39,629 nucleotides of DNA, taken from a virus. The translations under genes and the position numbers were made by a program. Shown piece after piece: positions 1,354-34,494 of the stretch; the first letter of the stretch is position 1, and each line of letters opens with the position of its first letter. A model generated the notes under the pieces. It was given only the letters and a program-made list of their open reading frames with translations. It searched no databases and had not been told where the DNA came from. The stretch spans positions 1-39,629 of the IMG/VR virus record IMGVR_UViG_3300014050_000052, one strand, 5' to 3'.

Positions 1354-1365
1354 TTGATTCGAACG

Positions 1366-2418: not shown

Positions 2419-2450
2419 TTATTGACAAAAGACAGGAAGTAATTGATACT
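2419..2450 (+). promoter_or_regulatory. Putative promoter, bipartite motif copy 1
   Basis: TTATTGAC at 2419-2426, 10 bases, then AAGTAATT at 2437-2444, followed by GATACT. TTGACA (2422-2427) and GATACT (2445-2450) are 17 bp apart, as in a sigma70-type promoter. The identical bipartite motif occurs at 30757-30782, and in both cases an ATG lies 14 bases after the last motif base. The TTG start of the spanin gene would lie within the motif; the in-frame ATG 2458 would be close to the transcript start. Confidence 0.45.
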
Positions 2451-8606: not shown

Positions 8607-8610
8607 CGCC

Positions 8611-9309: not shown

Positions 9310-9312
9310 ATT

Positions 9313-13264: not shown

Positions 13265-13265
13265 T

Positions 13266-13889
13266 ATGCCTATCTCAATTGATGGAGCTGGGGTGATAAC
13301 TGGTCTATCCGGCGGAGGCTTGCCCGATGGCAGTATTCATACAGCTGACATTGCAGACAGCGCAATCACAACTGCAAAGATTGCTGCCGGTGCGGTTATT
13401 CCAGCTGACCTTTCTCAACCACTAACCCAGGCTACCGCTCAGAATACAACTTCAGGTTCTACCATTGATTTTACGGATATCCCCAGTTGGGTGAAAAGAA
13501 TTACAGTTTCTTTTTCTGGGTTGAGCACGACAGGGGCTAGCGGCAACTTTCCTCAAATACGGCTTGGAACATCCGCTGGGGTACAAGCAACTGGGTATAC
13601 TGGTTTTACTTGGCTGGGAAATACAAATAACTCAGGGCATTCGACTGGATTTCTTTTGACTGCCTCTGGATATAACACAAGTCAATCCTTGTACGGTCAT
13701 GCCGTATTAACGCTTCTTATCGGAACCACTTGGGTATTTTCAACCATGTCTGGAAACGTAACTGGCGGCACAGCAGCTGTGGGCGGTGGGGGGACTACGC
13801 TCTCATCTACACTTACTACAGTTAGATTAACCACAGGGGGCAGCGACACGTTTGACAGCGGAACCATCAACCTTATGTACGAAGGATAA
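13266..13889 (+). CDS. Tail fibre-like protein 4 (paralogue of next gene)
   Basis: The 207-aa product starts at ATG 13266, one base after the preceding stop, with no clear ribosome site, so coupling is likely. The N-terminal region (HTADIADSAITTAKIAAGAV, then LSQPLTQ) is a common fibre linker. The C-terminal 140 residues begin DIPSWVKRITVSFSGLS and end DTFDSGTINLMYEG. The same domain frame appears in the next protein (GIPSWAKRITIMFYEIS ... DTFDSGSVNVMYEG). The shared ends with a variable middle suggest a receptor-binding head domain. Such domains occur in many uncultured phage fibre genes. Confidence 0.7.
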   Translation: MPISIDGAGVITGLSGGGLPDGSIHTADIADSAITTAKIAAGAVIPADLSQPLTQATAQNTTSGSTIDFTDIPSWVKRITVSFSGLSTTGASGNFPQIRLGTSAGVQATGYTGFTWLGNTNNSGHSTGFLLTASGYNTSQSLYGHAVLTLLIGTTWVFSTMSGNVTGGTAAVGGGGTTLSSTLTTVRLTTGGSDTFDSGTINLMYEG

Positions 13890-13894
13890 TTATG
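13875..13894 (+). repeat. 20-bp cassette-junction repeat, copy A
   Basis: The same 20 bases recur at 14564-14583. Each covers the last codons of one fibre gene (MYEG), its stop, the GAAGGA ribosome site and the ATG of the next gene. This makes a ready-made recombination joint between fibre cassettes. Confidence 0.8.
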
Positions 13895-14578
13895 AGCCTC
13901 CTAAAAGCCAACTCAGTCCAGATCGGCCAGTCGGCAACGGCCACCCAAAACTTCACCCTCTCCGTCCCAGCATCACCCGATGGAACGATTAAGCTGGCGA
14001 GGGGCAATAGCGGTTCGACCACGGCGGATATTCTAACCGTAGACGCAAGCGGGAATGTTACGACTACGCTTGCCAATGGGATTGTTACACCAGCCAAACT
14101 ATCGCAGCCGATGACGCTTATGACTGGTGTTGCGGCAAGCACTTCCTCTGTTGTTTATACTGGCATCCCTAGCTGGGCTAAAAGAATAACAATCATGTTT
14201 TACGAAATATCCATCACAGGAGCTAACCACATTCTTGTTCGATTAGGGACTCCTAGCGGTTTCGAACAAACAGGATATAAGTCGCAAATGACAATCTCTA
14301 ACTCAGGCAGCGCGACCGGAAATAGTACGATAGGCTTTATAATGCACTACCCAGAAGCTAATTCTTTTTCTAACGGCACAATGACAATTAGCCATATGGG
14401 CAGCAACGTGTGGACATCCTCAGGAACATATCAATGGACAGGCAGTACAGGTTCTACAATTATGTCCGGAGGATCAAAAGTTCTTACGACGGGTGTTTTA
14501 GATCGAGTTCAAATCCTGTCAGCCAACGGAACAGATACTTTTGATTCTGGTTCCGTCAACGTGATGTACGAAGGATAA
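13892..14578 (+). CDS. Tail fibre-like protein 5 (paralogue of preceding gene)
   Basis: The 228-aa product starts at ATG 13892 after GAAGGA. The N-terminus (LLKANSVQIGQSATATQNFTL, TIKLARGNSG) is an attachment-type segment found in phage fibres. A short linker (NGIVTPAKLSQPM) leads to a C-terminal domain homologous to that of the preceding gene, from GIPSWAKRIT to DTFDSGSVNVMYEG, with a divergent middle. The two proteins appear to share a receptor-binding scaffold with different specificity loops. The gene may arise from duplication and N-terminal swapping. The stop is followed by the same ribosome-site/start joint as in copy A. Confidence 0.7.
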   Translation: MSLLKANSVQIGQSATATQNFTLSVPASPDGTIKLARGNSGSTTADILTVDASGNVTTTLANGIVTPAKLSQPMTLMTGVAASTSSVVYTGIPSWAKRITIMFYEISITGANHILVRLGTPSGFEQTGYKSQMTISNSGSATGNSTIGFIMHYPEANSFSNGTMTISHMGSNVWTSSGTYQWTGSTGSTIMSGGSKVLTTGVLDRVQILSANGTDTFDSGSVNVMYEG

Positions 14579-14583
14579 TTATG
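14564..14583 (+). repeat. 20-bp cassette-junction repeat, copy B
   Basis: Identical to 13875-13894. It joins the 228-aa and 350-aa fibre genes. Confidence 0.8.
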
Positions 14584-15633
14584 CCAACCACAATCCACGG
14601 AACTAACGGAATCACCTTCAATGACGGATCAACGCAGACCACTCGTCCTGCGGTTGGGTTCCGAAATAAAATAATTAATGGTGATATGCGGATATGGCAA
14701 CGGGCAACTACTATCTCAAACCCAACCTCGGCAAACTTTTATACAGCAGATAGGTGGGGGTGCAACAGAGCTTCTGACGTAACTGGTGCAACCGTTTCTA
14801 GGGATATAAGTGGACTCTCTGGTTTTGAGTACTCTCTAAAATTGCAACGTACTTCTGGCAATACAAACACAGGTGCTTTGTCACTCTGGTATTCTAACGA
14901 GTCCACGAACACTTATGATCTGGCTGGAAGTCCAGTAACACTTTCGTTTTGGGTTAAAACGGGGGCAAATTATTCGGGGGGAGTACTTAACGTTGTTGTT
15001 TATTCGGGGACTGGAACCGACCAAAGAGTTTATGCCTATACTGCAGCCACATCCATAGTCTCAACAAGCCAAGCAATTACTTCAACTTGGACGCGTTACG
15101 CATTTACTGGAACAGTTCCATCAAATTCCACTGAACTTGGATTACAGATTTCATTCACACCAACTGGAACTGCTGGTGCTGATGATTCTGTGTACATCAC
15201 AGGAGTCCAACTCGAAGCAGGCTCAACCGCAACCGAGTTTGAGCGCAGGCCGATTGGGACGGAGCTAGCGTTGTGTCAGAGGTATTATGACAAATCGTAT
15301 TCAATGAATGTAGCTCCTGGTACAGCTACGGCCAACGGAATGCTTAACGCAATATCAGAAGATTGGGCTGGTACTTGGTATTCTGGTGGCGGTTCTATAC
15401 GGTTCACAACGGAGATGCGTAGATCCCCAGATTTTGCATACTACGATTCTGCTGGCACCATAAATCGATTTTCAAGTTTATGGAACGGATCTATGGGGGG
15501 CAATATCAATCCAAGTGTTACTTTGTACACCGGCACTAAGGCTGTTGCAATCCTTGAGGGGTCTGGCGGGCCATCGGGTGGTCGTTCGGGGTCGCCCCTT
15601 GTGTGTCACTACACGGCTGATGCGGAGCTATAA
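14581..15633 (+). CDS. Tail fibre-like protein 6 with carbohydrate-binding-type beta-sandwich
   Basis: The 350-aa product starts at ATG 14581 after GAAGGA. The N-terminus (TTIHGTNGITFNDGSTQ) is a common fibre attachment motif. It is followed by NKIINGDMRIWQRATT and YTADRWGC, the entry of a jelly-roll domain widespread in phage tail proteins and resembling carbohydrate-binding modules. The jelly-roll ends with TGVQLEAGSTATEFERRPIG and ELALCQRYYDKS. The C-terminal 100 residues end in CHYTADAEL, like other fibre ends. The protein probably binds a surface glycan. It is the last of the fibre series. Confidence 0.75.
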   Translation: MPTTIHGTNGITFNDGSTQTTRPAVGFRNKIINGDMRIWQRATTISNPTSANFYTADRWGCNRASDVTGATVSRDISGLSGFEYSLKLQRTSGNTNTGALSLWYSNESTNTYDLAGSPVTLSFWVKTGANYSGGVLNVVVYSGTGTDQRVYAYTAATSIVSTSQAITSTWTRYAFTGTVPSNSTELGLQISFTPTGTAGADDSVYITGVQLEAGSTATEFERRPIGTELALCQRYYDKSYSMNVAPGTATANGMLNAISEDWAGTWYSGGGSIRFTTEMRRSPDFAYYDSAGTINRFSSLWNGSMGGNINPSVTLYTGTKAVAILEGSGGPSGGRSGSPLVCHYTADAEL

Positions 15634-16412: not shown

Positions 16413-17588
16413 ATGGGCAAGAAAAGTCCTCCTAAACCACCAGAACTTCAGGCTCCGAAGTTTTCTCAGATTGATCTGGAAAAACTTGGTCAGCTACTAA
16501 ACCTGGATCTAAACGATCTTGGCTCTTACCTCAATGCGTACCCGGACTTCATGCAACAGCAGAGCGTCCTTGGGGATCTGCAAGGTTTCTCCAATGCCGC
16601 CAATAAATCAGCGCAAGACACCCTTGAGGGAGTTGCCCCTGGGACGATGGATAATCTTAAATCCGCGGCGGATACGGTTTCAGCCCAAATGCGGGGTCAA
16701 ATTCCCCAGGACGTGGAAGATCAGTTGTTTGGCAGCGCGGCCTTCAGGGATTTCTCCTCGGGCGCCGGTTCCTCCAGCCAACGAGCAAGAAACCTTACCG
16801 CTCGCGACTTTGGCGCTACCACAATGGACATGAAGAACGCGGGGCTTCAAAACTATCAAACTCTTCTGGGTGATGCCAATGCGCTCACCCCGGTCAAGCC
16901 CACCGATCTTTTGTTCAGCCCCGCAGATGTCCTAGCCCGGCAGGACGCAAATACAGCCATCTCAAACCAAGAGGTTGCGTTTAATACGAACCTGACCAAC
17001 TACACGACCACGTACAATAACGACATCGAGAATCAACAGCGGTACTACAACACCGGAATCAAGAACGAGCAGGCCATTGCAGATACAAACACGGCGAACA
17101 CCAACGCCATGAACAAGTACAACTACGATCTGATGAAGTATCAATCTAGTGGTAGCAGTGGGCTTGGCAGTCTTATCGGTGGCGGTATCGGAGCTATTGC
17201 CGGAACTTTCCTTGCGCCTGGAATTGGTACGATGGCTGGCGCAAAGATTGGTTCTGGTTTGGGTGGTGGCGTCGAAGGCGCGGTCAGCGGTCAAGGCTTT
17301 GGCGGTTTGGCCAGCGGCTTGCTTTCTGGTGTATCCGCTTTGGGCGGTATCGGCGGTGGGGCGGCTGGGTCCTCCGGTGGGCTTGGCGGAATGGGCAATC
17401 TCTTGGGTGGCTTGGGTGGAATCTTTGGAGGGAGCAATGGGGCGAGTGGTGGTGGATCTTCGTCTTTTGGTGCGACTCCTATCCCAAAAGCAAGTGGTCT
17501 TGGCGGTGGCGGAGCCGGAAGCTTCAGCCCGTATTCGCCAGCTGCGTCTTGGTCTTCACGAAATACCGTGCCCTTGTTCGGGAGATAA
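16413..17588 (+). CDS. Internal virion-like protein with glycine-zipper region
   Basis: The 391-aa product begins with a Pro/Lys-rich N-terminus (GKKSPPKPPELQAPKF). It has a helical, Asn/Gln-rich middle (residues about 20-240, including NTNLTNYTTTYNNDIENQQR) and a Gly-rich stretch (about 248-350). Within that, SLIGGGIGAIAGTFLAPGIG and the following AGAKIGSGLGGG form a glycine-zipper of the kind that inserts into membranes. In podovirus genomes, a protein of this type lies just before the large internal virion proteins and may help form the ejection channel. That role is inferred from order and composition. No enzymatic motif was found. Confidence 0.6.
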   Translation: MGKKSPPKPPELQAPKFSQIDLEKLGQLLNLDLNDLGSYLNAYPDFMQQQSVLGDLQGFSNAANKSAQDTLEGVAPGTMDNLKSAADTVSAQMRGQIPQDVEDQLFGSAAFRDFSSGAGSSSQRARNLTARDFGATTMDMKNAGLQNYQTLLGDANALTPVKPTDLLFSPADVLARQDANTAISNQEVAFNTNLTNYTTTYNNDIENQQRYYNTGIKNEQAIADTNTANTNAMNKYNYDLMKYQSSGSSGLGSLIGGGIGAIAGTFLAPGIGTMAGAKIGSGLGGGVEGAVSGQGFGGLASGLLSGVSALGGIGGGAAGSSGGLGGMGNLLGGLGGIFGGSNGASGGGSSSFGATPIPKASGLGGGGAGSFSPYSPAASWSSRNTVPLFGR

Positions 17589-17591
17589 TTT

Positions 17592-18635
17592 ATGGCCTTA
17601 GGAGCAGCAAACAAACAGCAGATGCAACCGGCGCAGTATTTAATCCCCGTAAAAGAGGATGGCTTGCTTCGCCCGGGCAACTATAGCGCTCAAAACGTCA
17701 ACACCGGGCTTTTCCGACCTCAAGAGACCATGCCGTTGGTCCAGTCGCAAATGCAGCAGACCACGAGGGATAATGTAGCTCGTCAGGCTTTGCAGGATGC
17801 GGAACCTTGGGCTGTCTTAGAGCGGATGCAAAATGTTCTTGAGAAATCCCAACCCAACCTTGAGCGGATTAAATACAACCGATCGATGGACATGCAGTCG
17901 CTTTTGAATAACGAACTTAACACCATCAACGAGCTTTACTCCCGAGCTTACAAAGGCGACATGAATGCTCAAGAGCAGCTGACAAACTTTACATTCCGAA
18001 ACGAGATTCTGGAAGGCGCCACACCCGAGCAATTTAATCAACTTAAACAAGTTCGTGACAGGGCACAGGCTTCAGTTTTGAACAGTACGATCCTGGCTTC
18101 CTCGCAGGCCGTTAAGAAAGACTTTGCGGTGATGGTTCAAAACCTTACCGCTGAAAATAACCCGGACAGCAAGTACGTGCAGGGTATTATCAGTGCTGCC
18201 GTGGTTGCCGCAAATTCACAAAACAGGGCTTTATCTGTTCAAGAACTAGAAGCGATGAGCACGGCTATTAACGGGTATAAAGCTAAGTACCCCAATACCA
18301 AAGCCGTCGACAGCAGTATTGTTGATGGCTTTAAGAAATCTATGGCGGGCGCGGACAAGCAGATGCTTAACGAACAGCTGTACGGTGATGGGAGACTTAA
18401 TGCTATGCAGCTCGATAAGTTGCAAAGCTCCACAGCGGACATGCTAAAAGTGACTACTGACCCAGAAGTTCAAAAGCAGCTCTTGTTCCAATATGCGCAA
18501 ACTCTCCAAGCCTCAGGGAGAGATGCTTCAGGTTTATTGCGGTCAGTTATGGATATGAATAAGACCCCCGAGGAAAGAGCCGCTTCTGCTCAGGGTTCCG
18601 CGAAGTCAGAGTTATTGAACATTCTTAAGAAATAA
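17592..18635 (+). CDS. Internal virion-like helical protein
   Basis: The 347-aa product starts at ATG 17592 with GGGAG upstream, 3 bases after the preceding stop. It is almost entirely helical with many Gln/Asn/Lys residues (LERMQNVLEKSQPNLERIKY, LNNELNTINELYSRAYKGDM) and no membrane segment or catalytic motif. Between a glycine-zipper protein and the giant polyvalent protein, it may be a core or ejection-channel component like T7 gp14/gp15, but no sequence family was recognised. End of the gene carries a weak copy (5) of the intergenic motif. Confidence 0.6.
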   Translation: MALGAANKQQMQPAQYLIPVKEDGLLRPGNYSAQNVNTGLFRPQETMPLVQSQMQQTTRDNVARQALQDAEPWAVLERMQNVLEKSQPNLERIKYNRSMDMQSLLNNELNTINELYSRAYKGDMNAQEQLTNFTFRNEILEGATPEQFNQLKQVRDRAQASVLNSTILASSQAVKKDFAVMVQNLTAENNPDSKYVQGIISAAVVAANSQNRALSVQELEAMSTAINGYKAKYPNTKAVDSSIVDGFKKSMAGADKQMLNEQLYGDGRLNAMQLDKLQSSTADMLKVTTDPEVQKQLLFQYAQTLQASGRDASGLLRSVMDMNKTPEERAASAQGSAKSELLNILKK

Positions 18636-18646: not shown

Positions 18647-21600
18647 ATGCAACTTCAAGAAATCCTACAGAACGATAAGTTCAAGGGAATGGGCCCTGAC
18701 GAGCAGGAGCAGGTTCTCAATCTTTACGAGCAGTCCGTACAAGATGAGGCTTTTGCCCCAGGGCAGCTCGACATGTCTAGGTATGTGCAAGCTCAAGAAG
18801 AAGTGCGAGCGGCCAAGGCAGCATTGAGTCTCCAGCCCGATCCAAGGTCTACCTTCCAAAGAATGAAGGACGAATTCGTGAACGGCATGGCCTCCTCAAT
18901 GCAGGCGGCTAAAGCTCTTCGCGCGGTCAACGGTCTTGATACTCCCGAAGAAGCTGCCGCCGAGCTTGCTCAACAAGATAGAGAGCTTCAAGCCCAACCA
19001 AAAGCTCGTTCGATGCTTAAGTATCAAAAAGCCGGAGGTAGTGGTTGGGTTGCGCCGATTCTTAATATTTTTACCAACCCAGAAGCTGCGGCTCTTATTG
19101 CGGCTCAAGGTTTAGGTTCAAGCGTACCAGGCATGGCCCTGGGTGCTGCGGGTAGCATTGGCGCTAGAGCTGCGGGTGGAGGAAAAGAGGCCGTCCTGCT
19201 CTCTACTATGGCAGGTGTTGGTGCTGGATCAGCCTTCGTTGAGGGTGGATCAAAGATCTTGGAAGACCTGCGTGAGCAAGTCGGGGATCTTCAGAACACC
19301 GAAGCTGTAGCTGCTGTTCTTCGCGACCCAGCAAAAGTTCAAGAGCTGAAGAATCGGGCGCTTGCTCGAGGAGTTACAGTCGGGGCATTTGATGCGGCTT
19401 CTGTGGCACTTCCTTCGGAAATGCTTTTCAAGACCGCTAAGGGGTTAAAGGGGTTGGCTGCTCGAGGTATTGGAGATGCGGCTCTACAAGGTATGTTGGG
19501 TGCGGCCGGCGAGGTTGCGGGAAGTGCGGCAATCGGAGAAAAGTCCGATCCCGCCGACGCCTGGGCTGAGTTTATCGGTGAAATGGTTCCTGGTATGGTT
19601 GAGCTTGGGCTTGGCGGAGCCCGCACTCTTATCCCTCAGACCGAGCAGGCAGTTGAAGAGAAGACTAAGACCAACACTTTATTCCCCAGTCAGACCAGCG
19701 CACCTACAATCCAAGCCGCAAAACAAAAAGCCCAGTTTGAGCCCCCAAGGGAGGCGTCTAGCGCATTGACTAAAGAAGCTAAAAAAGTTGCTAATAACCA
19801 AACTCCTGAGCTTCGACCGACTAATTCCACTGAGGTAAATGATCTTTTAGACGGACGAGATATAGTTACGGATGCTGCCCCGGAAGAGGTCGACGGATCT
19901 CAAAACCCTCTCCCTGTAGGACAAGACACAGAAAAACCCAAGAAAAAGAGCGCCTTTACCTACCTCGGTAGCGGTTTTGGACCTTTTGCTGGTGTAGCTG
20001 AAAGCCTGGCAGATCAACACGGGGTAAATCGCGGTGGTTTGAAAGTTCGTTCTAAGAACCCTTCGCTTGCGGAGTCGGAATCAGATCTGCTCTCAAGCTT
20101 CGACACGACAGAAGATCCAGACGAGGCGGACTCACATAACATTAACAATTCAGATTTCGTAGTGGTTATCGGGAACCCGGATACTTACAAAAACGATATT
20201 GGGCAGTCTAGGAAAAGAAACATCGCCACCGACGCAAGACAAACCTTTATAGCCGGTAGGAGCGCGAATGTTCTTATCCCAAGGGTTGCTCGGTTCCTCA
20301 AGGACAACCCAAACGCTTCAAAGTTTACTATCATCGAACCTCAGAACACGGCAAGGTTTACTAGGGGTACCGATAAAGAAGCTCTAATTAAGGATTCGCA
20401 GAATATAGCCAGAGAGTTATTTCAAGAGCTTGGTTCTGTGCCTAATGATCCAGAAGCAAGAGCTGAGTACCTGGACTACATTATCGAGGGTAGGTCAAAG
20501 GCTTCAGGCACAGACTTTGCTGTGTCAGCTTCTCCAGAAAAAATAATTGAGAACTCAATTAACCCTTTGAGGTATACAACTCGTGCGGCGAGCGTGGAGG
20601 CCCTTAAGAGTCAGTTTGACCCGACCGTCGATATTCGAGCCAATGACCGTGTTCTGGTTTTTGGAACAGACGTTAACGGGAACCACAACGGTGTTTATGG
20701 TAAAATTGCAAAGGAGCTTGGTGCTGAAGTAGGCAAGACGGGACCTAATGGGCGAACGTATGGATTGCCGGTATACGAAAAAGGATTTAAAGGGCCCTCG
20801 GCCGAAAACAATCGCCAAGGTGCAAACGAGTCGTTTAACCCAAGAGAAGCTCGAGTTCAGCTTGAAAGATTCTTACAGTACGCAAAGGCAAACCCCGGAA
20901 AAGAATACTGGCTTATGTTTGGTGCTCATCAAGGGGCGGGGCGGGTAAGTACTTTTTCGGAAACAAGAGAAAGAGAAATATTCGCGGGTCAAAAGATTCC
21001 GGCAAACGTAAAACTACTAAGTAGCACAGCAGCAAATATTTTCCCCTTTGCCACAGCGCCTAAGAAAAGACGCGGTACAACGTCCAGAGGAACAGCAGCT
21101 CAACTTGAGGAAGTGCGAGCCCGGGCCGAAAAGACAGGTCAGCAAAATGGTTTGGAGGGAACGGACCTGCAAGCTTTCGTGCAAAAAGAAATGCAAAAGA
21201 TACCTTCAGGGGGCAAAAGGTCTACAAGAAGCGCGTCTATTCCAAATATGGATCGTGTGCTGGGTGAAGCTCAAGCGCTAGACCCGAACGATCCAGATAA
21301 GAACCTGAGCTTAAGTGCGCGTATACGCAACCAAGGGGAGAATATCCTTGAGGGGATTATTCTAAGCAGGCGGCAAGCTCGCGAACTGCTTTCCGCTAAA
21401 AGGTCTGAAGAAATCGAAAGACGCAGAAAAATCGTGGGGACTCAAAAAGATGTTGAAGGTCGCAAAATATATAACCCCAAAGATGCTCCCGGGGGCATTA
21501 CAAAGCTAACCCCATTTCCATTTACGGCTTTTGCTTATTCCAAAAAAGACAACACCTATACTGTAAAGGTTAAGAACATCCGAGTGATTGGTGACGAAGT

Positions 21601-24600
21601 CGATGGAGTTGAATCAGTGGGCGTGGATGAAGCTTCACAAATTGCTCAAACCAACCCCCAGGTAATCGAACTTAACCGGTCCAAAGGAGAACAGTATCTT
21701 GTCGAACTTGAGCCATTTTATCAACCCGATGCGGCTTACAGAAAATCTTTCTGGGGTACGTACGAACGTGAAACAGAGGTGGTCGCTGAAGCCAAGCAAA
21801 ACGGAAATATAGGAACCGTTGATCCTGACGACTTGTTTACCAGATCCGATGTGGCGAAACCCATCGGTGCCCAGGGTGAGACCTGGTGGGAGCAACCGAT
21901 CCTGCCTATGCCTTCGACGGCAACTACGCCTGCGACCAAAAAAGAACGTGGTGCTAAAAAAGCGGTTGAAGCCAAACCGGTGCGTGGCTTTGTTGATCTT
22001 CAAGTCCCGCCCGAGCCATCCGTTACCGATCTCGATAACAAATTAACTGCGCTGTTTAGCGAGTTGGAACAACTTCAGGCTAAGGAAGCACAGGAGTTTG
22101 GCGACCTCTCTAAAGACGGTGGGCGGAATGCTCCGAAAAAGAAAGGCGCTATAAACACAGCTGAGCGAAAGAAGCTCTCGGATCGCATACGCGAGGTCAC
22201 CCTTCAGTACGGCGAAATGCAAAACAAGATAAGGGCTCAACGTATTGCTTGGCTTGAGTCTGGGGTATCTAGAATTTCGGAAGCGATATCGAAGAACCCC
22301 GACATGGGTATTGTTATTAAGAACTCCCCAGAATGGGTTAAGGCTTCTGTGCAGGAGCTAAACGCGGTTCTTAACTCCCTGGTTAATCCTCTTGATGGTT
22401 CGCTACGAGTATACGGCGTACGCACGGATTACATGAATGAGATGAACGGGTTGGGTCGGCAGGATTCAGACTGGGTCGGGATGGCTCCTACCGAGGAGAT
22501 GACTGAAGCCAAGAAGAGTCAAGCTCGGTCCAGCTACATGAACCAAATCTATTTAGTTGATCCAAGAGCGATCAACGACCCGAAAAAGAGATTTGTTCCA
22601 CCGCCTCCTCTCGACATAGCCAAGTACGCACAAGAAGTAATTCTGGATAACGAGGAGCGCAGGATGGGTAGAAGCGCTACTCCAGCACTTCGACCTCTGA
22701 CTCCTGAGCAGATTACGACCCTGCAGGAAGCCATCTATGCGGTGAACTCCGTAAAGCCGGGGGCTAAGATAACCCGGGATGCTCAATACCTTGTAAAGTC
22801 AGCGCTTGAAATTGTTAAGGGCTACGCAGAAGACCAGAATATTCTAGCAAAGATGTATCTGGCTGTGCGGGAGCAAAACCCATGGTCCTTGAACTTCCCT
22901 GGCACGTACATGCAGATGCTGGCCAAGGCTATTGCAAGAGACCCACGAGCCGGAAATCTTGCGAACCTAGACATTTTCCTCCCCGGGGTTGGTTCGCTTT
23001 CCGTAGCTCCGGATAATGTTCAGTTGTTTAAGGATGGAGAGGTAGTTGGGGAAGAAGCTCCTGCCGCAGCTATCTTTACACCAGCAAACGCAATTGAGAT
23101 CCAAGAGTTCCCAGGCGTTTTGTTCAAAGAGAACATGCTCTATCTGATGGACAAAGCCAGGAACGTCATGCGGGCGCTTCCATTTTCATTTAGGAACAAA
23201 TTCATTGCGAACGCCAAGGGCACGAACGTTGTTACCGATACAGACGTCATGCTACCGGCAACTTCGATCAACGTTTACGAGGGCCCCGAGATGGAGGCAC
23301 AGAGAAAGCTGACCCCTGAGGATCTAAATGATTTGAGCTGGGCGGAGGCAAGCAATCTGCTTGGCAAATTCCCTGGCAAAGACTGGCGTAGTAAGTTTGC
23401 GTTTGATGTAGCGCAAAAGCTTGGGGCCAGCATGCCGAGGCGGAAGGAAAAGCCCGAATTAAACAAACCTTCGCACGGCAGTCCGGTTGTAATTACAGAT
23501 CCGGAAACCGTCAAATTTGTCAGAGCTTACCCTGGGTTCTTTACCGGCGTGGAGACCAGCGGTAGCGCCTTAATTATTACGGAAATAACCACAAAGTTTG
23601 GCATATTTACATCTGAGCCCCATGGCGTGGCGGGTTTGCCTAGGGACTTCACAACTCTTTTCTACAGACTTCTTCATCCTTTCTTCCAAACACAAGAAAA
23701 CGAATTTAACAGCGATGTTGAGTTCGGAGCTAAGGAAGAAACCAATTTTGCGCAGAAGGCTTTTTACACCCAGAAGTCGGATGACATGGGTTCAGCCGCC
23801 AATATAGCCGGTGGCAATGTATCAACAGTCGGGGACACCGTACCTTCCTATACCGATAAACCTTCCGCCAATAAGCAATTGGCTATGGGTGAGAAGTCTT
23901 ACGGGCAGGGCCTTGAGGATGAGCAAATACCGGAACTTGAAAGCCAAAAGGGAGCGGGTGAGGTCAGTCGTGGGATGGGCGGCTATGAATACAGCCAGAC
24001 CCTGGAACAAGCTGAAGGTGCAAATGCCGTTAAGTCAGCTAGGTTGCACATGTTAATTTCTCCAGAGAAGACGGCTATCATCAGGGCGGCTGATCCGGAA
24101 GGAAAGTACGTTCGAATGCTGGTACTTCCTAAGATCTCCTACATTTCACGATACGGTAACCCTTCGGATATCACCTCAAGGGACGGTTTCGCCATTGTCA
24201 CAGGCATTACAGATCCGATGACAAATGAGTATCTAGGAGACAAAGCTCCGCTCCGAGGGCGCGAAGAATCTAAAATCATAGCTCAAGACAGGCGACTGGA
24301 ATCCGCGGCGGTTGTGGCACGGGATATGGATAAGCTCGGTCAGTACATTTACCTACCCGAAAACGTAACCATACAAGATATGGTTCTCGCCCATCAGAAC
24401 CTTCTCAATCAGTTCGTAGGAGCCAAAGAAGGCTTTGTGGTGGACTTCACAAAAGAGACGCAGGAATCGGACAGTGTTATCAGGGTTCTTCGTAATGTCG
24501 TAAGTTTTGATAAGACCGCGGACGGCGTTTTTGTTTCAGGCGTATACAACCACAGGACAAACGAATGGCTTGGTCAGTTGCCCTATGGGGCAAAAAGGAT

Positions 24601-27600
24601 GACCGTTGAAGAGATTTCCGCTCTTACTAGGGAGCAAGCGGCCGTCCTTGGTAACAAAATCAATACCTGGCTGAAAGAAGATCGTGGCGCAGATGTCGAC
24701 ACGCTTTCACTTGATGATGTTTCTTTTTCGGATGACGATATCAAGAACCGCACGCTACTGCTTCAGACGATAGCCCAATCGTACCTGGATGGTTTCGGCA
24801 AGACTCGCGAAAGTATTGAAAAAAGTCTGGTGGAAGCGATGGCTGCAAACACCCGGAGGGACATGAACTCTCTGTTCCTCGAGGATGTCGATGCGCGTCT
24901 GCAGAGGGCCATTGATGAAGGAGCTTTTGACCCAGAAGAACTGGCCCTGCTCCCACGTATCATTCAGGATGCAGTAAACGTCTTTAAGAGCGGAATGGTG
25001 TATACGCCGATTGACGAGCAGGATCTTTCAAAGGGGTGGTCTTACGAAGTAGGGGTCAACCGCAACGCAGCAGGTCGCTCCGGCCGTCCCTTGGAGCATT
25101 TGCTAACCCGAGCCAAGCAAAGTGGCTTGTCTGAAACCGAGGTTAGAAGCCTTGTGGATAACCTCAGCGTCACTACTCCTGAGAATTCGAAGGATAGCGA
25201 GATGTTGCGGAGAGTGTTTATCGACGCACTTATACGCAGTAAGAGAACCCCAGAAGTAATCGAGACAAACAATGAGGAGTTGAAGGCCGAGGAAGTAAGA
25301 TCGAAAAGAGACGCCGAGTATAACAGAAGGCGACTAAGCGCATTGTTTGGGAAGATTTTCAAGCAGTACGATAGCATGACTCAAGAGCCTTTTGGCGGTA
25401 CCTACCTCGACGAAAGCCGTCCAACCAATACTTTATACGGGTTTGTTTCGTCCTTATCGGTTGAGGGCTATGCCGGAGTTCTTGGTTTAGCAAGGCGGGT
25501 TAGCCTAATCGCCGATTTGATGAAGTTGAGAGAGAAGTCTTTTGTTTCACTTGAAGGCAGAACAGAAGAAGTAAAAGAGGGAAGACCGGTTGAGGATATT
25601 TTTGAAGCCAGTCTCACGCCAGAAGATATGGGTAGTGATTACGACGCACAGATTGGCCTCGATAACGAAGGTTATTTTACGGAGCTAGACAAATATGAAA
25701 CACTACCAACCAAAAACAAACGCAGGACAAAGTTCGAAGCATTCATCAATAAGATGGCCGCGTACCGCAACACCCTGCCTTTCATCCCCAGAGCTGTTCA
25801 TGACATCATTATGCGTGAAGGCTTTGGATTCACTTCGGGATACCGTCCTTCCATGTACAACGGCAAGAGCAACGCCCAACTGGATATTCTGTTTCCCACC
25901 ATCAAAAGCAAGAGCGGGTCGCAAGTCGGGGATAAAGGAAAGGGCAAAGGCTTTCTCAGTGGCGCGTTGCTTAACAAAGTATTCGGGTCACTACCTGGCA
26001 TTCCGTCCTCTTTCATTCAAGAGCCTGTTCTTCGTCAAATCGCGCAAGACAGGTACGAGGGCATTCTCAAGGAACTTGAGCGTAATAATATGCAGGAGTT
26101 CTCGGATGCTCAGAAAGTTAAGGATGTCCTTGAATTGTACGATCAAGAGGCTCAAGCAGAGCTCGATAAGGACAGCGAGATCCGGGCTGCGGTTAAAGCC
26201 GCGGGGGCTGATATTCCGAAAGGCACTGATCCTAGAAAAGAGCTGAATAGAATTGTAGCGGACGTAGTACGTAAAGGTTCGCTCTCAAAAGCTATGTTGG
26301 CGATTCTTGAAAACAGTCCTCTTGAGTCGTTGAACGACGCTGCGATGCGGATTACGAATCTTCTCCATAGAATTTACAGGCTGAATAACGTAACCCGTGA
26401 GCAGATGATCGAGCAACTGCTGGACCCAGTTGGTAAATTCGACCGTACACTGGCCCCGGAAGAACTTATCAGCCCAGAAAACGATAGGACTCGGGTCAAG
26501 GATCTCCTGTTTAACGTTCTCCTGCCCGCCTTTGAAAGTCGTGCTCCGTTTAACTCGGCCGCTGCGCTCAGTGAGATGCGCAAGATCAACGATCCTTACA
26601 TCAAGCAAGCGGACCGCTCCCGGATGAAGAAGGTCCAGGCCGATGTGGCCGGAGCGGCTAAGTATGCTACCGAGTCAGGCTTTGCTGACGCCGGGGTTAG
26701 CTTTGATTCAAACCTTCTTAACCTCGAGGACCCCAGACAAGAGAAGGCGATGGAATACCTTCGCTTTATTGCACGTCGCAGAGGTCTAAAGAACGTCAAC
26801 TTCCAGGCGAACACCACGGAGAATTACCCTGTGTTCACGGTTCGCGGTTCCGAGAACGCAAATGATCCAGTGAACTCGACCATCTTTGTTAACCCAGAAC
26901 TTCTGGCGGATAAACTTTTCCAGCAGAAAGATATTAAATTCTTGGACGGCGACGCAAGAAACACATACAACGACCTTACCGCGGCTTTGATGGACCAACT
27001 TATTACCCACGAGGTGGCTCATCTTTCTTACTTTGAACAACTCCGAAAAGAATACCGGGCTCGCTTCCCCAACGGGGGAGTATCTTGGGTGTCTTATTAC
27101 AACACCAGGGTTCGCGAGGCAGCGGACTTCCTTCGCTCAGAAGACAACGGGCTCATGGTCAAGTTGCCCGGCAAGAAAGCGGTTTCAGTTGAACAAGCGC
27201 TTGGTGAACTTTATCCCGAAACCAAGGAAAGCGATGAAGTGCTGGTTGCAGAGTTCTTCCGAGTTCTTCTTGAGCTTGATAAGAGTCAGGGTGCCAAGGT
27301 GTTTACCGAGAGTCTTGAGCTTGCCCGGAGTCTTCAAGTTCAAGATCGTGTATCTAACCTAATCCAGGGACAGTCCAGGCAGCAGGTAAGAAACCTCGAC
27401 ACCTTTGCCAGGGCGCGACGCAGGTCGTTCCTTGGGTGGTTGCGTACGGTTCTTGATTCTATATTTAATCTTTTCAGCACTCTTAAGAACTCTTCCGACC
27501 CAAGGGCGAGGAGTCTTTACGAAACCTATTACAAGATCAACACGGTATACGATCGGTTTTACTCCGATTACGTAGCGCCCCCGTCGTATAACTTGCCAAG

Positions 27601-30600
27601 CTCTGAAGCTCCTGGGTTAAACTCTTTGGGAGAAGCTATTGATCAAGCCCGACCGATCGGTGCTCAACCCTTGTCCGCGGCAGCCCGAGCGGCCGAGATC
27701 TACCAGGACGGTGTGCCAACCTACGAACAAGCATCGCAAAAAGCAGACCTCTCGTACCTTGCTGATGAAGGGGCAATCGAGGCAGTTGAAGGCGTTCTCG
27801 ACGAGTTAACTCCCGAAAAGATTTCAATGTGGTTAACACAAGTTGGACCCGATGCTGACAAAACTCAAGATATCGATATTGGGGGTCAACCCTACAAGTT
27901 AAACCAGCGACAGATTGTTCTGCTCGCAAGTTACGCAATTCGTCGGTTTAAGGAGAGGGGGCAGATCAAAAGAGCATCAGATCTTCTTACTTATGTGGGC
28001 AATCTCGGTCGCAGCATGGGACAGACAATATCGATTGGGTACAAGCTCCTTAAAGAATTCTTGATGTACACGCCGGCTGGCATGGTTAACGAATACATTA
28101 CGCGTCTTGCCGAGACCCGCAGAGGTGTAAAAGATAGGGTAGCCACCCAGAACGAAGAAATTCGTAAAGAAGTCAGGGAACTTCAGAATGTTGCACTAGG
28201 ACTTACCCTTAAAGACAAGGGCGTACAAAGCCTTATCGAACAGATCAACAGGCTTTACTCTCAAGCGCTGCGGGAAAACAACGCGGACGACATCGTTACT
28301 ATCATCAAGAATCACTACGAGCAGTTCAGCGGTGAAGACCTGGTCAAAGTGCTGTCCCGGCTGTTACCCGACTACGAAAATGCTCCGCTTAGGTTTAAAG
28401 AGTTGGCGGACATGGTGAAAGCAAACATGCAAACCCAGCTAGGAAAAGCTTTAAGTCTTCGTGGCCGTACGCTCGGGAGAAAAATCGTGAACCGTGCAGG
28501 CATGACCATCCCCGAGCTTAAGTCTGAACGGATTGAGCAATTGCTTAGCGAAATGCACGAAGTGGTTAAGCCCCCAATCTCCAGGTCAGGCAACACCTTG
28601 GAGAATGCAATTGCAGGAGACGCAAGGAAGATTCTTGAGCTGGCGGCTTTGGGTGCAATCAACGAGGATGTGGTTCTTTCAAGCATCGACAGTCTTGGTA
28701 AGTTCCCATCTTTTGACGTGAACACGGCCGAAACCCTGCGTCGCATGATGGAAGAGGCGGCTGAATTACCGGAAGGCTTCCAGCGGGATAGAAAGTTCCA
28801 AGAAGCGCTCAGAGTTCTTCACGGAGCGACAAAGTCTGATGCCCTCCCTCAGATCTCCGCTTACTGGTACATGTCCATGCTTTCAGGTCCGGCAACTTTC
28901 TGGATGAACTTTGTCTCGACTGCCTTTAAGGCAATTGCGGACATCGCAACTTACTCGTTGGCTGCAGCTACAGCCAGAGGCAACCCTCTGTTGGCCGCAA
29001 AGTACATGGCCCTAGGGTACAAAACATTCTTAGCGTCCATGCACACCATTGCTTTTGCAGAAGCCAAAGGAATCCTTCTTCACGGAGACATCAACCTAAG
29101 AACAAACGGTAAGTACGTGGATGAAGCTAGTATCAATGCTCTCGAATCAATGGAGACAGACACCCTCATGAAAAAGGTTCTGTCCAAGGGTAAGTATATT
29201 TTCCGAATTATGGCGGCTTCGGACGCATTGTTTGGCCGTTCTGCACTGGAAGGTTTTGCGGCTATTCAAGCTCAGATCCAAGCCATCGAGAATGTTGAGA
29301 ATGGGCTTACCACCTTGTCGCCTGAAGAAGAGGCGGCTCGGCTCCTTAATCAAACAGACAATTTCGTTGCTTACGCTACAAATGTGGCCATTAACGATGA
29401 GGGTTTGAAACCGGGTACTGCGGAATTTATAAAGCGAGTATATGAACTTCGGGATCAAGCAATTCTCAAAGATCCTGAGCGGGCTAGTATCATGCGCCGT
29501 GCCGAAGATTTATCTTTGTACGCCACATACAACAACACGCCGTATGGGATACTTGGCAACATAGCCAAAGGTATTGGGACTTTCTCGCAACAGCACCCAA
29601 TTCTCGGACCGCTATTTGTTCCTTTCACCAAAATCGTTTCAAATGTGACCAACGAAAGTATCAACTACACTCCGATCGGAGCGTATCGAGCATTCCAAGC
29701 TTGGGGTAAGGCCGGCACAAAAAAGACAAGCGGACTAGCTAAGTCGGTCGAACAGTTGGAGCAAATCAAGCTGATCGAGCAAGGCAGCCTTTATGCTATC
29801 CAAGCGGTACTTGGTACGGCCGGCATGCTTGTGCTAGCTGGCCTATCCAACATGTTAAAAGATAAAGACGACGACGGACAGGATGACGGATTTAATATAA
29901 CAGGCGGTGGGCCTTCGGACCCTGCGGCCAGAAAGCAAGCTCGCGAAGCTGGTTACGTCCCGTACTCATTCTCCTTTGGAGGCAATAGCGTTAAAGTGAG
30001 CTACCTATCTACTCCGCTTGCAATTCCATTGGCGATTGTCGGAACGTGGTTTGATACCTCGAACTACCCGAGAGGTCGTGAAAAAGACTTAAGCGAGAAG
30101 CTTACGTCGGCCGCGCTTGCTACGGTTCAGGTGCCCTTCAATCAATCATTCCTTCAGGGGTTGTCCAACTTGTTTAAGATGCTGGACGGAACTTCTGAAG
30201 GTCAGGACGTGTCGGCCTTGCAGAACTTCTTTTCGGGAGCGGTCGGCAACGCAGTACCCAACATTATTAAACAAGCAGATCAAGTCTTTGAACCGATTCC
30301 GCAGCAACAAACAAGTTTTGTGGGTAAGTGGTTGTTTAATAAAGTACCGATATTAAAGAGCATGACTGGGCAGCCGCAACTCAATGTATTGGGTGAGGTG
30401 GTTAATGCTCCCGCAGGGCCGGAAAGGTTGCTGTTCTTACAGAGGTTTATCAATACTTCTGAAGCAGACCCTCTCTTCAAACTGTTGTCAGCCAAGAAAG
30501 CCTTTATCCCAGACGCTCGAAGAGGACAGACAGTTCAAAACTACCCCCTCAACGACGAGCAGTTCTATAGATTTAGAGAGCTGCGAGGAAAGATTATTGC

Positions 30601-30754
30601 CCAGGTTGTTCGTAGTCCTTCGTTCTTTGCAATGGCAAAGCGCATGAACACCGAACAGCTAGACGATTATTTGACCAAGCTGGGGCAAAGAGCAACCGCT
30701 ACCGCAAAGGCGCAACTGACCACTGAGTTAATCAAGCAAGGCGTAAAGCTGTAG
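18647..30754 (+). CDS. Giant polyvalent virion protein with LPD38-like domain and metallopeptidase
   Basis: The 4035-aa product takes 12.1 kb. By rough position: 1-330, helical with Gly/Ala-rich membrane-active stretches (SSVPGMALGAAGSIGARAAG); about 435-640, a Rossmann-like domain with NSDFVVVIGNPDTY; about 665-795, an A1S_2505-like domain (VLVFGTDVNGNHNGVYGKIA, GPNGRTYGLPVYEKGF, FLQYAKANPGKEYW). A long unassigned middle follows. HEVAH (His2788, Glu2789, His2792) with a later Glu2869 (VAEFFR) looks like a gluzincin peptidase. Helical regions run from about 2990 to 3400. The C-terminus has several membrane segments (about 3410-3475, 3720-3738, 3785-3801) and FNITGGGPSDPAARK plus YVPYSFSFGG, the hallmark of LPD38-type domains. 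Such polyvalent proteins are thought to enter the host with the DNA. No RNA-polymerase motifs were seen. ATG 18647 lacks a ribosome site. Confidence 0.85.
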   Translation: MQLQEILQNDKFKGMGPDEQEQVLNLYEQSVQDEAFAPGQLDMSRYVQAQEEVRAAKAALSLQPDPRSTFQRMKDEFVNGMASSMQAAKALRAVNGLDTPEEAAAELAQQDRELQAQPKARSMLKYQKAGGSGWVAPILNIFTNPEAAALIAAQGLGSSVPGMALGAAGSIGARAAGGGKEAVLLSTMAGVGAGSAFVEGGSKILEDLREQVGDLQNTEAVAAVLRDPAKVQELKNRALARGVTVGAFDAASVALPSEMLFKTAKGLKGLAARGIGDAALQGMLGAAGEVAGSAAIGEKSDPADAWAEFIGEMVPGMVELGLGGARTLIPQTEQAVEEKTKTNTLFPSQTSAPTIQAAKQKAQFEPPREASSALTKEAKKVANNQTPELRPTNSTEVNDLLDGRDIVTDAAPEEVDGSQNPLPVGQDTEKPKKKSAFTYLGSGFGPFAGVAESLADQHGVNRGGLKVRSKNPSLAESESDLLSSFDTTEDPDEADSHNINNSDFVVVIGNPDTYKNDIGQSRKRNIATDARQTFIAGRSANVLIPRVARFLKDNPNASKFTIIEPQNTARFTRGTDKEALIKDSQNIARELFQELGSVPNDPEARAEYLDYIIEGRSKASGTDFAVSASPEKIIENSINPLRYTTRAASVEALKSQFDPTVDIRANDRVLVFGTDVNGNHNGVYGKIAKELGAEVGKTGPNGRTYGLPVYEKGFKGPSAENNRQGANESFNPREARVQLERFLQYAKANPGKEYWLMFGAHQGAGRVSTFSETREREIFAGQKIPANVKLLSSTAANIFPFATAPKKRRGTTSRGTAAQLEEVRARAEKTGQQNGLEGTDLQAFVQKEMQKIPSGGKRSTRSASIPNMDRVLGEAQALDPNDPDKNLSLSARIRNQGENILEGIILSRRQARELLSAKRSEEIERRRKIVGTQKDVEGRKIYNPKDAPGGITKLTPFPFTAFAYSKKDNTYTVKVKNIRVIGDEVDGVESVGVDEASQIAQTNPQVIELNRSKGEQYLVELEPFYQPDAAYRKSFWGTYERETEVVAEAKQNGNIGTVDPDDLFTRSDVAKPIGAQGETWWEQPILPMPSTATTPATKKERGAKKAVEAKPVRGFVDLQVPPEPSVTDLDNKLTALFSELEQLQAKEAQEFGDLSKDGGRNAPKKKGAINTAERKKLSDRIREVTLQYGEMQNKIRAQRIAWLESGVSRISEAISKNPDMGIVIKNSPEWVKASVQELNAVLNSLVNPLDGSLRVYGVRTDYMNEMNGLGRQDSDWVGMAPTEEMTEAKKSQARSSYMNQIYLVDPRAINDPKKRFVPPPPLDIAKYAQEVILDNEERRMGRSATPALRPLTPEQITTLQEAIYAVNSVKPGAKITRDAQYLVKSALEIVKGYAEDQNILAKMYLAVREQNPWSLNFPGTYMQMLAKAIARDPRAGNLANLDIFLPGVGSLSVAPDNVQLFKDGEVVGEEAPAAAIFTPANAIEIQEFPGVLFKENMLYLMDKARNVMRALPFSFRNKFIANAKGTNVVTDTDVMLPATSINVYEGPEMEAQRKLTPEDLNDLSWAEASNLLGKFPGKDWRSKFAFDVAQKLGASMPRRKEKPELNKPSHGSPVVITDPETVKFVRAYPGFFTGVETSGSALIITEITTKFGIFTSEPHGVAGLPRDFTTLFYRLLHPFFQTQENEFNSDVEFGAKEETNFAQKAFYTQKSDDMGSAANIAGGNVSTVGDTVPSYTDKPSANKQLAMGEKSYGQGLEDEQIPELESQKGAGEVSRGMGGYEYSQTLEQAEGANAVKSARLHMLISPEKTAIIRAADPEGKYVRMLVLPKISYISRYGNPSDITSRDGFAIVTGITDPMTNEYLGDKAPLRGREESKIIAQDRRLESAAVVARDMDKLGQYIYLPENVTIQDMVLAHQNLLNQFVGAKEGFVVDFTKETQESDSVIRVLRNVVSFDKTADGVFVSGVYNHRTNEWLGQLPYGAKRMTVEEISALTREQAAVLGNKINTWLKEDRGADVDTLSLDDVSFSDDDIKNRTLLLQTIAQSYLDGFGKTRESIEKSLVEAMAANTRRDMNSLFLEDVDARLQRAIDEGAFDPEELALLPRIIQDAVNVFKSGMVYTPIDEQDLSKGWSYEVGVNRNAAGRSGRPLEHLLTRAKQSGLSETEVRSLVDNLSVTTPENSKDSEMLRRVFIDALIRSKRTPEVIETNNEELKAEEVRSKRDAEYNRRRLSALFGKIFKQYDSMTQEPFGGTYLDESRPTNTLYGFVSSLSVEGYAGVLGLARRVSLIADLMKLREKSFVSLEGRTEEVKEGRPVEDIFEASLTPEDMGSDYDAQIGLDNEGYFTELDKYETLPTKNKRRTKFEAFINKMAAYRNTLPFIPRAVHDIIMREGFGFTSGYRPSMYNGKSNAQLDILFPTIKSKSGSQVGDKGKGKGFLSGALLNKVFGSLPGIPSSFIQEPVLRQIAQDRYEGILKELERNNMQEFSDAQKVKDVLELYDQEAQAELDKDSEIRAAVKAAGADIPKGTDPRKELNRIVADVVRKGSLSKAMLAILENSPLESLNDAAMRITNLLHRIYRLNNVTREQMIEQLLDPVGKFDRTLAPEELISPENDRTRVKDLLFNVLLPAFESRAPFNSAAALSEMRKINDPYIKQADRSRMKKVQADVAGAAKYATESGFADAGVSFDSNLLNLEDPRQEKAMEYLRFIARRRGLKNVNFQANTTENYPVFTVRGSENANDPVNSTIFVNPELLADKLFQQKDIKFLDGDARNTYNDLTAALMDQLITHEVAHLSYFEQLRKEYRARFPNGGVSWVSYYNTRVREAADFLRSEDNGLMVKLPGKKAVSVEQALGELYPETKESDEVLVAEFFRVLLELDKSQGAKVFTESLELARSLQVQDRVSNLIQGQSRQQVRNLDTFARARRRSFLGWLRTVLDSIFNLFSTLKNSSDPRARSLYETYYKINTVYDRFYSDYVAPPSYNLPSSEAPGLNSLGEAIDQARPIGAQPLSAAARAAEIYQDGVPTYEQASQKADLSYLADEGAIEAVEGVLDELTPEKISMWLTQVGPDADKTQDIDIGGQPYKLNQRQIVLLASYAIRRFKERGQIKRASDLLTYVGNLGRSMGQTISIGYKLLKEFLMYTPAGMVNEYITRLAETRRGVKDRVATQNEEIRKEVRELQNVALGLTLKDKGVQSLIEQINRLYSQALRENNADDIVTIIKNHYEQFSGEDLVKVLSRLLPDYENAPLRFKELADMVKANMQTQLGKALSLRGRTLGRKIVNRAGMTIPELKSERIEQLLSEMHEVVKPPISRSGNTLENAIAGDARKILELAALGAINEDVVLSSIDSLGKFPSFDVNTAETLRRMMEEAAELPEGFQRDRKFQEALRVLHGATKSDALPQISAYWYMSMLSGPATFWMNFVSTAFKAIADIATYSLAAATARGNPLLAAKYMALGYKTFLASMHTIAFAEAKGILLHGDINLRTNGKYVDEASINALESMETDTLMKKVLSKGKYIFRIMAASDALFGRSALEGFAAIQAQIQAIENVENGLTTLSPEEEAARLLNQTDNFVAYATNVAINDEGLKPGTAEFIKRVYELRDQAILKDPERASIMRRAEDLSLYATYNNTPYGILGNIAKGIGTFSQQHPILGPLFVPFTKIVSNVTNESINYTPIGAYRAFQAWGKAGTKKTSGLAKSVEQLEQIKLIEQGSLYAIQAVLGTAGMLVLAGLSNMLKDKDDDGQDDGFNITGGGPSDPAARKQAREAGYVPYSFSFGGNSVKVSYLSTPLAIPLAIVGTWFDTSNYPRGREKDLSEKLTSAALATVQVPFNQSFLQGLSNLFKMLDGTSEGQDVSALQNFFSGAVGNAVPNIIKQADQVFEPIPQQQTSFVGKWLFNKVPILKSMTGQPQLNVLGEVVNAPAGPERLLFLQRFINTSEADPLFKLLSAKKAFIPDARRGQTVQNYPLNDEQFYRFRELRGKIIAQVVRSPSFFAMAKRMNTEQLDDYLTKLGQRATATAKAQLTTELIKQGVKL

Positions 30755-33269: not shown

Positions 33270-33853
33270 AACACTTTACAAGGTGGTTCAGGAGGATCGT
33301 CAGCCCTGACCATTGGGCTTGGACCCTTGAAGGCATCGTACAGTTCCTTTAACTGCTCGCCTTTACCTTTGAATCTGGATGGAAGATCAATCATACACTT
33401 CTTCTCAAACAGCTTTTTGTTGATGTCTTTGTTTAGATCGGCGTCGTAGTTAGTCATACGTTGGTAGTATGCGTTAACTTCTTCCGGTCCGAGGATCTCC
33501 TGGATCCTCTCGTCTTGGAATGCGGCAAGCAACGATGACTCATGTGACCGCATATGCTCAAACATAGCTGTGCAATAAACACAGATACCCTTGGGCTTAT
33601 CGGAACAGTTCTCGTGGCCAAACTCACACTCGTATGGCATGACATAGTTACAATGCTTTTGGTAATAAGCACTGCACTCATCCCAGGTCATCCAATAGGT
33701 CTTGCTTTTCTTGCCAAGATTTTGGACGTCCACACCTTGGATCTTTATCTGCTTGTATGCGAAGTCAGCAAGATCCTTACCTAGTTTAATGTCTCCTTCT
33801 TGGTAATGTTTATAGTCTTTATCTGCCCTCCATAATAATCTGGGGTTACTCAT
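33266..33853 (-). CDS. Cys/His-rich protein of unknown function
   Basis: The 195-aa product is the last of the leftward operon; its start overlaps the preceding stop by 4 bases (ATGA). It contains a cluster of possible metal ligands: Cys60, Cys68, Cys76, His80, Cys83, Cys91, Cys94 (CVYC), His100 and His104. This suggests a zinc-binding or structural finger region in the middle, but I know no family with this exact spacing. N- and C-terminal parts are charged and helical. Company with HhH proteins and GP88 suggests a DNA- or metabolism-related early function. Confidence 0.6.
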   Translation of the reverse strand: MSNPRLLWRADKDYKHYQEGDIKLGKDLADFAYKQIKIQGVDVQNLGKKSKTYWMTWDECSAYYQKHCNYVMPYECEFGHENCSDKPKGICVYCTAMFEHMRSHESSLLAAFQDERIQEILGPEEVNAYYQRMTNYDADLNKDINKKLFEKKCMIDLPSRFKGKGEQLKELYDAFKGPSPMVRADDPPEPPCKVF

Positions 33854-34494
33854 TCCAATGTCTTACTCCAGTATCTCGTGGACTTAAAGCCTTGAAGCTT
33901 GTTCCACCAGATCTCTCTAGCGATGAATGGTTTAACGTCATAGTCAGAGGCGAGTCTAGTCCAATGGTTCTCCATTTTTGTGTACTCCGTTTTGTTTACC
34001 TGCCGTCCTTTTAATGCATGGATTCCACGCAAGATCAATCGATCCAGGCAGACGACCATGCAGTTAGGGTTCAACATGCCAATGGCAAAGCTGGCTTTAG
34101 CCAGCCCTAAACCAGGGACAGTCGCGGCAATGCGGTTGCGGTATTCAGTGCAGCTCTCGTTGGATTGACGCACAAAGCTGTGATACTTGTGCATAAACAA
34201 CTGTGTGAAACGCTGGATGTCTCTGGCTTTGCTCCGCCATAAACCAGTGCGTGCGTTGTACAGTCTACGTTCCAACTCGGCTGTATTGTCGATCCAATCA
34301 TTGTGGTTACCGACAGCTTCCATGCACTTGACGTTGTCTTCCCAGCCCATGTTGGCTGCGAAAATGCTGAACATCCAGAACTTGAACTCCCGCATCTTAT
34401 CTCCTCTGGGATTAATCTCGTCCCAGTAGCGGGTGTAACTGTCGATGTCGGATTGTTTAAGGTTGTAGTAGAGATCCCTAATGGCGGCCGTCAT
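33850..34494 (-). CDS. HhH-GPD-like protein (DNA glycosylase fold)
   Basis: The 214-aa product starts at ATG 34494, overlapping the upstream stop as ATGA. A helix-hairpin-helix is visible as ATVPGLGLAKASFAIGML (residues 124-141, with Lys133), followed by VVCLDRLILRG with Asp151. These correspond to the HhH motif and catalytic Asp region of HhH-GPD base-excision proteins. The lysine sits one position later than in endonuclease III, so AP-lyase chemistry is uncertain. The pattern matches HhH proteins seen in other phages. It probably binds DNA and may remove or recognise modified bases. A second HhH protein lies two genes upstream. Confidence 0.6.
   Translation of the reverse strand: MTAAIRDLYYNLKQSDIDSYTRYWDEINPRGDKMREFKFWMFSIFAANMGWEDNVKCMEAVGNHNDWIDNTAELERRLYNARTGLWRSKARDIQRFTQLFMHKYHSFVRQSNESCTEYRNRIAATVPGLGLAKASFAIGMLNPNCMVVCLDRLILRGIHALKGRQVNKTEYTKMENHWTRLASDYDVKPFIAREIWWNKLQGFKSTRYWSKTLE

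Follow-up and report, generated by a model that had tools for sequence, protein, structure and literature searches.

Two literatures meet in the protein described here: that on polyvalent proteins, for which injection has been inferred from domain architecture, and that on podoviral ejectosome proteins, for which ejection is known. Its closest described counterpart is internal virion protein D of marine T7-like podoviruses (P-SSP7 gp16, S-TIP37, CRP-804), a cysteine-free protein of ~1,100-1,270 residues encoded behind two small ejection-type genes; the giant protein analyzed here occupies the same place, likewise lacks cysteine, and shares the C-terminal module with its motif LTGxGPxDxxxR...GxxPYS, but carries ~2,800 additional residues at its N-terminal side, among them a zincin motif and regions specific to the lineage. 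Coliphage T7 gp16 resembles the giant in position, proposed role, and absence of cysteine; the connection to T7 is made by way of the marine T7-like group, through its annotation and its synteny, because the shared module has no detectable similarity to T7 gp16 or to a PDB fold. Polyvalent proteins (Iyer et al., 2017; PMC5512222) are, like the giant, very large and modular, carry a zincin-type motif, and are encoded beside virion genes, but they contain named polyvalent or LPD domains, of which none is detectable in the giant. The DarB-like LPD38 protein of Bcep22-like podoviruses has its size, its lack of cysteine, a putative C-terminal membrane module, and a late-gene position in common with the giant, whereas its LPD38 profile finds no match there. 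N4 gp50 is a giant, cysteine-free, ejected protein in which a helical C-terminal domain of ~110 kDa comes after an HExxH domain (PMC12633501), much as in the protein studied here; its polymerase domain, however, is not found in the giant, and the two C-termini are without significant sequence similarity.

The giant reading frame and its C-terminal module

The window, that is, the whole 39.6-kb stretch of DNA that was analyzed (out of a 43.3-kb virus record), contains a 12.1-kb open reading frame at 18647..30754 (+) that starts with ATG and continues without a break for 4035 codons, encoding a protein of 4035 aa and 445 kDa without cysteine. Relatives were found on at least eight independent viral contigs of 17-76 kb, with 83-97% identity in the C-terminal part, and seven of eight relative loci keep the giant in one long frame (3754-4167 aa, measured on the frame from stop to stop), the exception being a fragment (L010). 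Because independent contigs hold the same single long frame, its length is real and an assembly chimera is excluded, in agreement with the single unbroken gene of the original prediction. Conservation along the chain is uneven: aa 1-300, ~2700-2900, and 3200-4000 are best kept (mostly 68-93% identity in the more distant relatives, compared with 41-75% in the remaining regions), a block at aa ~1079-1294 (21881..22528, +) is absent from three relatives (L007, L011, and L012) and found in some others, and three (L006, L007, and L011) have a ~130-residue insertion near aa 1446. To judge from this missing block and the insertion, the protein is modular.

The part of the chain most informative about its affinities is the C-terminal module (aa ~3200-4035; 28244..30751, +). 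Searched by tblastn against phage records, aa 3407-3986 find a protein encoded in the podovirus record MW202801 (8e-29); weaker matches are to the Roseobacter-phage internal virion protein D (CRP-804, 5e-9) and to the proteins annotated as internal core protein in S-TIP37 (2e-5) and P-SSP7. A profile built from close relatives alone also retrieves internal virion proteins, with 59-63 matching frames in all, and in a broader search the module was found at or near the C-terminus in ~80 viral contigs, with complete carriers ranging from <1,100 to ~4,000 aa; in this last search, E-values are inflated for close relatives of the alignment members, and the tblastn and close-relative-profile searches are the unbiased tests. 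The homologues in MW202801, CRP-804, and S-TIP37, the three that were scanned, all belong to phrog_6651 ("internal virion protein"). A direct hmmscan of the giant against phrog_6651 gave no match at E ≤ 0.1, and the link runs via these intermediates; what sequence comparison indicates is that the C-terminal module is homologous to phrog_6651 proteins, and the giant as a whole is not placed in that family. A search of bacterial genomes with the alignment of the close C-termini found no prophage or host.

Within the module, aa 3751-3779 (ITGGGPSDPAARKQAREAGYVPYSFSFGG; 29897..29983, +) carry the conserved family motif LTGxGPxDxxxRxxxxxGWxPYS. The two strings singled out in the original prediction, ITGGGPSDPAARK and PYSFSFGG, both fall at aa ~3751-3779 and together constitute this motif, with counterparts LTGSGPSDPRVRAEWINAGNRPYSIRF in CRP-804 and MTGDGPTDRQMRQSWIDAGYKTRTFTLGG in S-TIP37. 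A short distance upstream, aa 3715-3733 (29789..29845, +) form a possible membrane helix; no other segment of the giant exceeds a hydropathy of 1.5 over 19 residues. AlphaFold2 modeling of the module from 50 sequences gave a mostly helical structure (pLDDT 77.8) that has no match among PDB folds; among predicted viral structures, the model matches the internal virion proteins of S-CBP2 and S-CBP3 as well as ART-PolyVal-like and LPD-containing proteins (E 8e-14 to 1e-4). We identify the last ~830 residues of the giant with the module that ends internal virion protein D of podoviruses, the gp16-type "internal core protein". Direct homology to coliphage T7 gp16 itself was looked for and not obtained by hhalign against a seven-sequence profile (probability 0.3%), with an N-terminal profile, or by PDB fold search.

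We consider it likely that the giant is a gp16-type (internal virion protein D) ejection protein with polyvalent cargo from a podovirus-like phage. Delivery into the host, as in the original prediction, has good support, which comes from evidence other than that proposed, namely the C-terminal homology to internal virion protein D, the position behind two small cysteine-free genes, and the cysteine-free sequence of the giant. In the mechanism we propose, the C-terminal ~830-1,030 residues would be the chassis of the giant, which would be packaged in the head together with the two small proteins encoded upstream, exit via the short tail, presumably insert into the membrane, and help to build a channel for DNA entry. 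Cargo, possibly acting on the host, and membrane-active parts would be provided by the N-terminus, rich in Gly/Ala, and by the ~2,500 residues between it and the module. Small internal virion proteins and giants terminate in one and the same C-terminal module, which allows the small protein to be viewed as a chassis to which the extra length of the giants adds cargo.

Upstream regions, zincin motif, and PIGAQ linkers

The Gly/Ala-rich segments of the original prediction are found at the N-terminus: aa ~130-330 (19034..19636, +) form such a segment, which is kept in relatives and also occurs in CP2 ORF24 and in another giant (L020), G+A amounts to 27% in aa 1-250, and aa 1-450 are 88% conserved among relatives. 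CP2 ORF24, an LPD22 polyvalent protein, matches the N-terminal part of the giant (aa ~1-450). The "Rossmann pair" (aa ~486-830; 20102..21136, +) is conserved among relatives and probably comprises two alpha/beta domains: in a low-confidence model of aa 440-1449 (pLDDT 44.9), strands and helices alternate at aa ~500-600 and ~661-830, and the second domain (aa 661-756) matches phrog_2072, a family of unknown function (E 1.2e-6) and the sole PHROG match of the giant at E ≤ 0.1. A fold search with the same model returned no match at E ≤ 0.001, and one scan for the pair beyond this phage group recovered only the same contigs and a 32-residue fragment.

The block at aa ~1079-1294 starts right after the first PIGAQ pentamer discussed below, and is followed by aa ~1295-2650 (22529..26596, +), which contain the site of the ~130-residue insertion and have homologues in close relatives only. 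Among all sequences fetched, aa ~860-2650 found no match beyond close relatives, which agrees with the original prediction that roughly half of the chain can be given no domain. PDB sequence-profile searches with four regions of the giant (the pair, the zincin, the middle, and the N-terminal region) likewise gave no match.

The region at aa ~2690-2900 (26714..27346, +) is a probable zincin-type metallopeptidase. The HEVAH sequence on which the original prediction of a peptidase was based lies at aa 2788-2792 and, together with a downstream Glu at aa 2869, is invariant in seven aligned sequences; the invariant HEXXH and the distant Glu make a zincin-type peptidase likely, even though the profile search just mentioned does not add a structural match. 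The zincins of distant giants do not align with that of the giant. Two PIGAQ pentamers stand out as invariant islands in variable linkers, copy 1 at aa 1072-1076 (21860..21874, +) and copy 2 at aa 3003-3007 (27653..27667, +), the latter between the peptidase and the C-terminal module. Exactly two copies (aa 1072 and 3003), each after [AE][KR] and with variable flanks, are present in all full-length relatives. Of 626 invariant pentamers, two are repeated (PIGAQ and LISPE) versus 0.21 pairs expected; the PIGAQ repeat could be due to chance, and the repeat alone is weak evidence because LISPE repeats too.

Processing by zincins has been proposed for the polyvalent class (Iyer et al., 2017; PMC5512222), and the PIGAQ linkers supply a specific hypothesis of this kind: the zincin would most likely process the chain itself, with the PIGAQ linkers as the best candidate cut sites, where autoprocessing is possible. 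Cuts at both would yield pieces of about 1,076, 1,931, and 1,028 aa, the last being of about the size of stand-alone gp16-like proteins. In its most far-reaching form, which we hold to be rather unlikely, the giant would be a three-part pre-protein whose own zincin cuts both linkers and frees cytoplasmic cargo (aa 1-1076 and 1077-3007) from a ~1,028-aa, gp16-size channel piece, and cysteine exclusion would be a general signature of periplasm-crossing phage proteins. Almost even chances attach to an alternative in which the giant is an ejection protein, but HEVAH is either inactive or directed at host proteins, and PIGAQ marks incidental linkers. N4 vRNAP, which is packaged without being processed although it has an HExxH domain (PMC5512222), provides a precedent for this, and three distant giants with the same module (L022-L024) are without any HExxH; the alternative must, however, accommodate the fact that both PIGAQ copies are isolated invariant pentamers located in variable linkers at module borders.

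Polyvalent domains in the module family

The original prediction placed an LPD38-type membrane domain at the C-terminus, which would make the giant a DarB-like polyvalent protein like gp70 of Bcep22/BcepIL02. BcepIL02 gp70 is of similar size (4667 aa) and also cysteine-free, a homologue of it in JC1, which is present in virions, bears LPD38 at its C-terminus (PMC9144972), and there is a loose by-eye resemblance around GW..RS..FGIG. The profile evidence goes the other way. A Pfam scan of the giant produced no hit at E ≤ 1, and LPD38 was found in none of 18 module-bearing relatives (E ≤ 0.01) and in none of 50 module homologues (E ≤ 1); hhalign of the module against an LPD38-region profile (BcepIL02 gp70 and relatives) gave E 0.48 and a probability of 0.1%. 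A PF18857 search of the virus record also found nothing, but its control was equally silent, and it is the Pfam scans that carry the LPD38 test. Together with the hhalign result, they leave LPD38 as the identity of the C-terminal region unsupported and make the DarB-like reading improbable; the module and LPD38 may still have a common origin too old to detect.

As a class assignment, by contrast, "polyvalent protein" has some support. Among 18 relatives with the module, it stands behind ART-PolyVal (4/18), LPD23 (1/18), and LPD3 (1/18), and the structure matches listed above include proteins of the same class. Named cargo domains occur in the relatives only (the Pfam scan at E ≤ 1 detects no named polyvalent or LPD domain in the giant, and no T7 gp16-type transglycosylase or peptidoglycan-hydrolase domain), and the giant's own multi-domain signs are the HEXXH domain and the modular insertions.

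Cysteine content and gene neighborhood

The giant and the two genes upstream of it contain no cysteine in 4,773 residues, where 38 would be expected at the window rate (60/7,529, or 0.80%, in the other window genes counted). All module carriers taken together have 18 cysteines in 130,090 residues versus 1,016 in 147,697 (0.69%) in other ORFs of ≥300 aa from the same loci, that is, 50 times fewer. Known ejected proteins behave in the same way: there is no cysteine in P22 gp7, gp20, and gp16 (0/1,309), in T7 gp15 and gp16 (0/2,065), or in N4 gp50, gp51, and gp52 (0/4,294), and a single one in T7 gp14 (1/196). N4 vRNAP has previously been described as cysteine-free, and our count agrees. The other N4 and P22 virion proteins counted have 66 cysteines in ~9,200 residues, with coat, scaffold, and tail needle also low or zero; because some of these are thus poor in cysteine, its absence is a strong signal in a long protein and a weak one in a short protein. 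A search of the accessible literature for published mention of cysteine absence in ejected proteins found nothing useful. We infer that the absence reflects avoidance of disulfides: a chain without cysteine would cross the oxidizing periplasm with no disulfides forming. If the pattern is general, injected proteins could be picked out among uncharacterized phage proteins from sequence alone, by counting cysteine. Cysteine is also missing from two giant polyvalent proteins whose C-termini do not match the giant's module, those of BcepIL02 (4667 aa, L102:6609-20612) and CP2 (2478 aa, L005:11254-18690).

The shared lack of cysteine is one of the features that would suit an N4-type virion RNA polymerase or a protein directly related to it. 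The order of parts is as in N4 gp50 (N-terminal part, central enzymatic part, HExxH, and ~110-kDa helical C-terminal domain; PMC12633501), and the HExxH helices are alike (LIHELVHASTFEEV in the giant versus LITHEVAHLSYFEQL; pairwise E 9e-4). An RNA polymerase domain, however, is not detected (Pfam, E ≤ 1), and comparison of the C-terminal profile with the C-terminus of N4 vRNAP detected no direct homology (E 0.013-0.027, probability 2-3%); an N4-type polymerase is highly improbable.

The genomic context agrees with the gp16-type reading. Ejection genes are ordered small, small, large (PMC8954989), and the same order is seen here, with a glycine-zipper gene, a helical gene, and the giant. The first (16413..17588, +) encodes a 391-aa glycine-zipper protein without cysteine that is a probable gp14-like ejection protein; it has homologues upstream of two distant giants (L022 and L024). 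The second (17592..18635, +) encodes a 347-aa protein without cysteine or a hydrophobic segment that, by position, is probably gp15-like. Directly 3' of the giant lies an endolysin gene with a glucosaminidase domain (PF01832; 30796..31755, +), and an endolysin is likewise encoded downstream of the gp16-like gene in the MW202801 relative. That the giant is the tape measure of a long-tailed phage, enlarged by extra domains, is hardly credible: the giant is the largest gene of the structural region and its C-terminus is helical, but the gene comes after the tail-fibre genes and right before the endolysin, its C-terminus matches podovirus internal virion proteins, and the structure search lists a tape measure only at E 0.09.

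The ejection genes are preceded by eight consecutive genes (8004-15633, +), of which several have tail-fibre matches, and these in turn by a gene for a 1208-aa protein (4144-7770, +) that matches several tail-fibre and baseplate families at aa ~370-480; its place ahead of the fibre genes suggests that it is a tail protein. The motif [LI]GA[AS][ML]PR is present in two to four copies each in three distant giants (L022:1550-12328, L023:1019-12328, and L024:1655-12310), is without a match in the remaining module carriers >1,000 aa, and occurs once in the giant, at aa ~1592 (LGASMPRR), within a stretch absent from its other relatives. Further downstream, the window contains a match to the 8-oxoguanine DNA glycosylase family at 33850-34494 (-) (Ogg-HhH, PF22175, E 7.8e-9) and rIIA- and rIIB-like genes at 36634-39629 (-). 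The 76-kb relative (L133) encodes a terminase, an integrase, a helicase, and a DNA polymerase, and from its integrase (8873-10147, +; phrog_1, E 6e-25), the phage group of the giant may include temperate phages.
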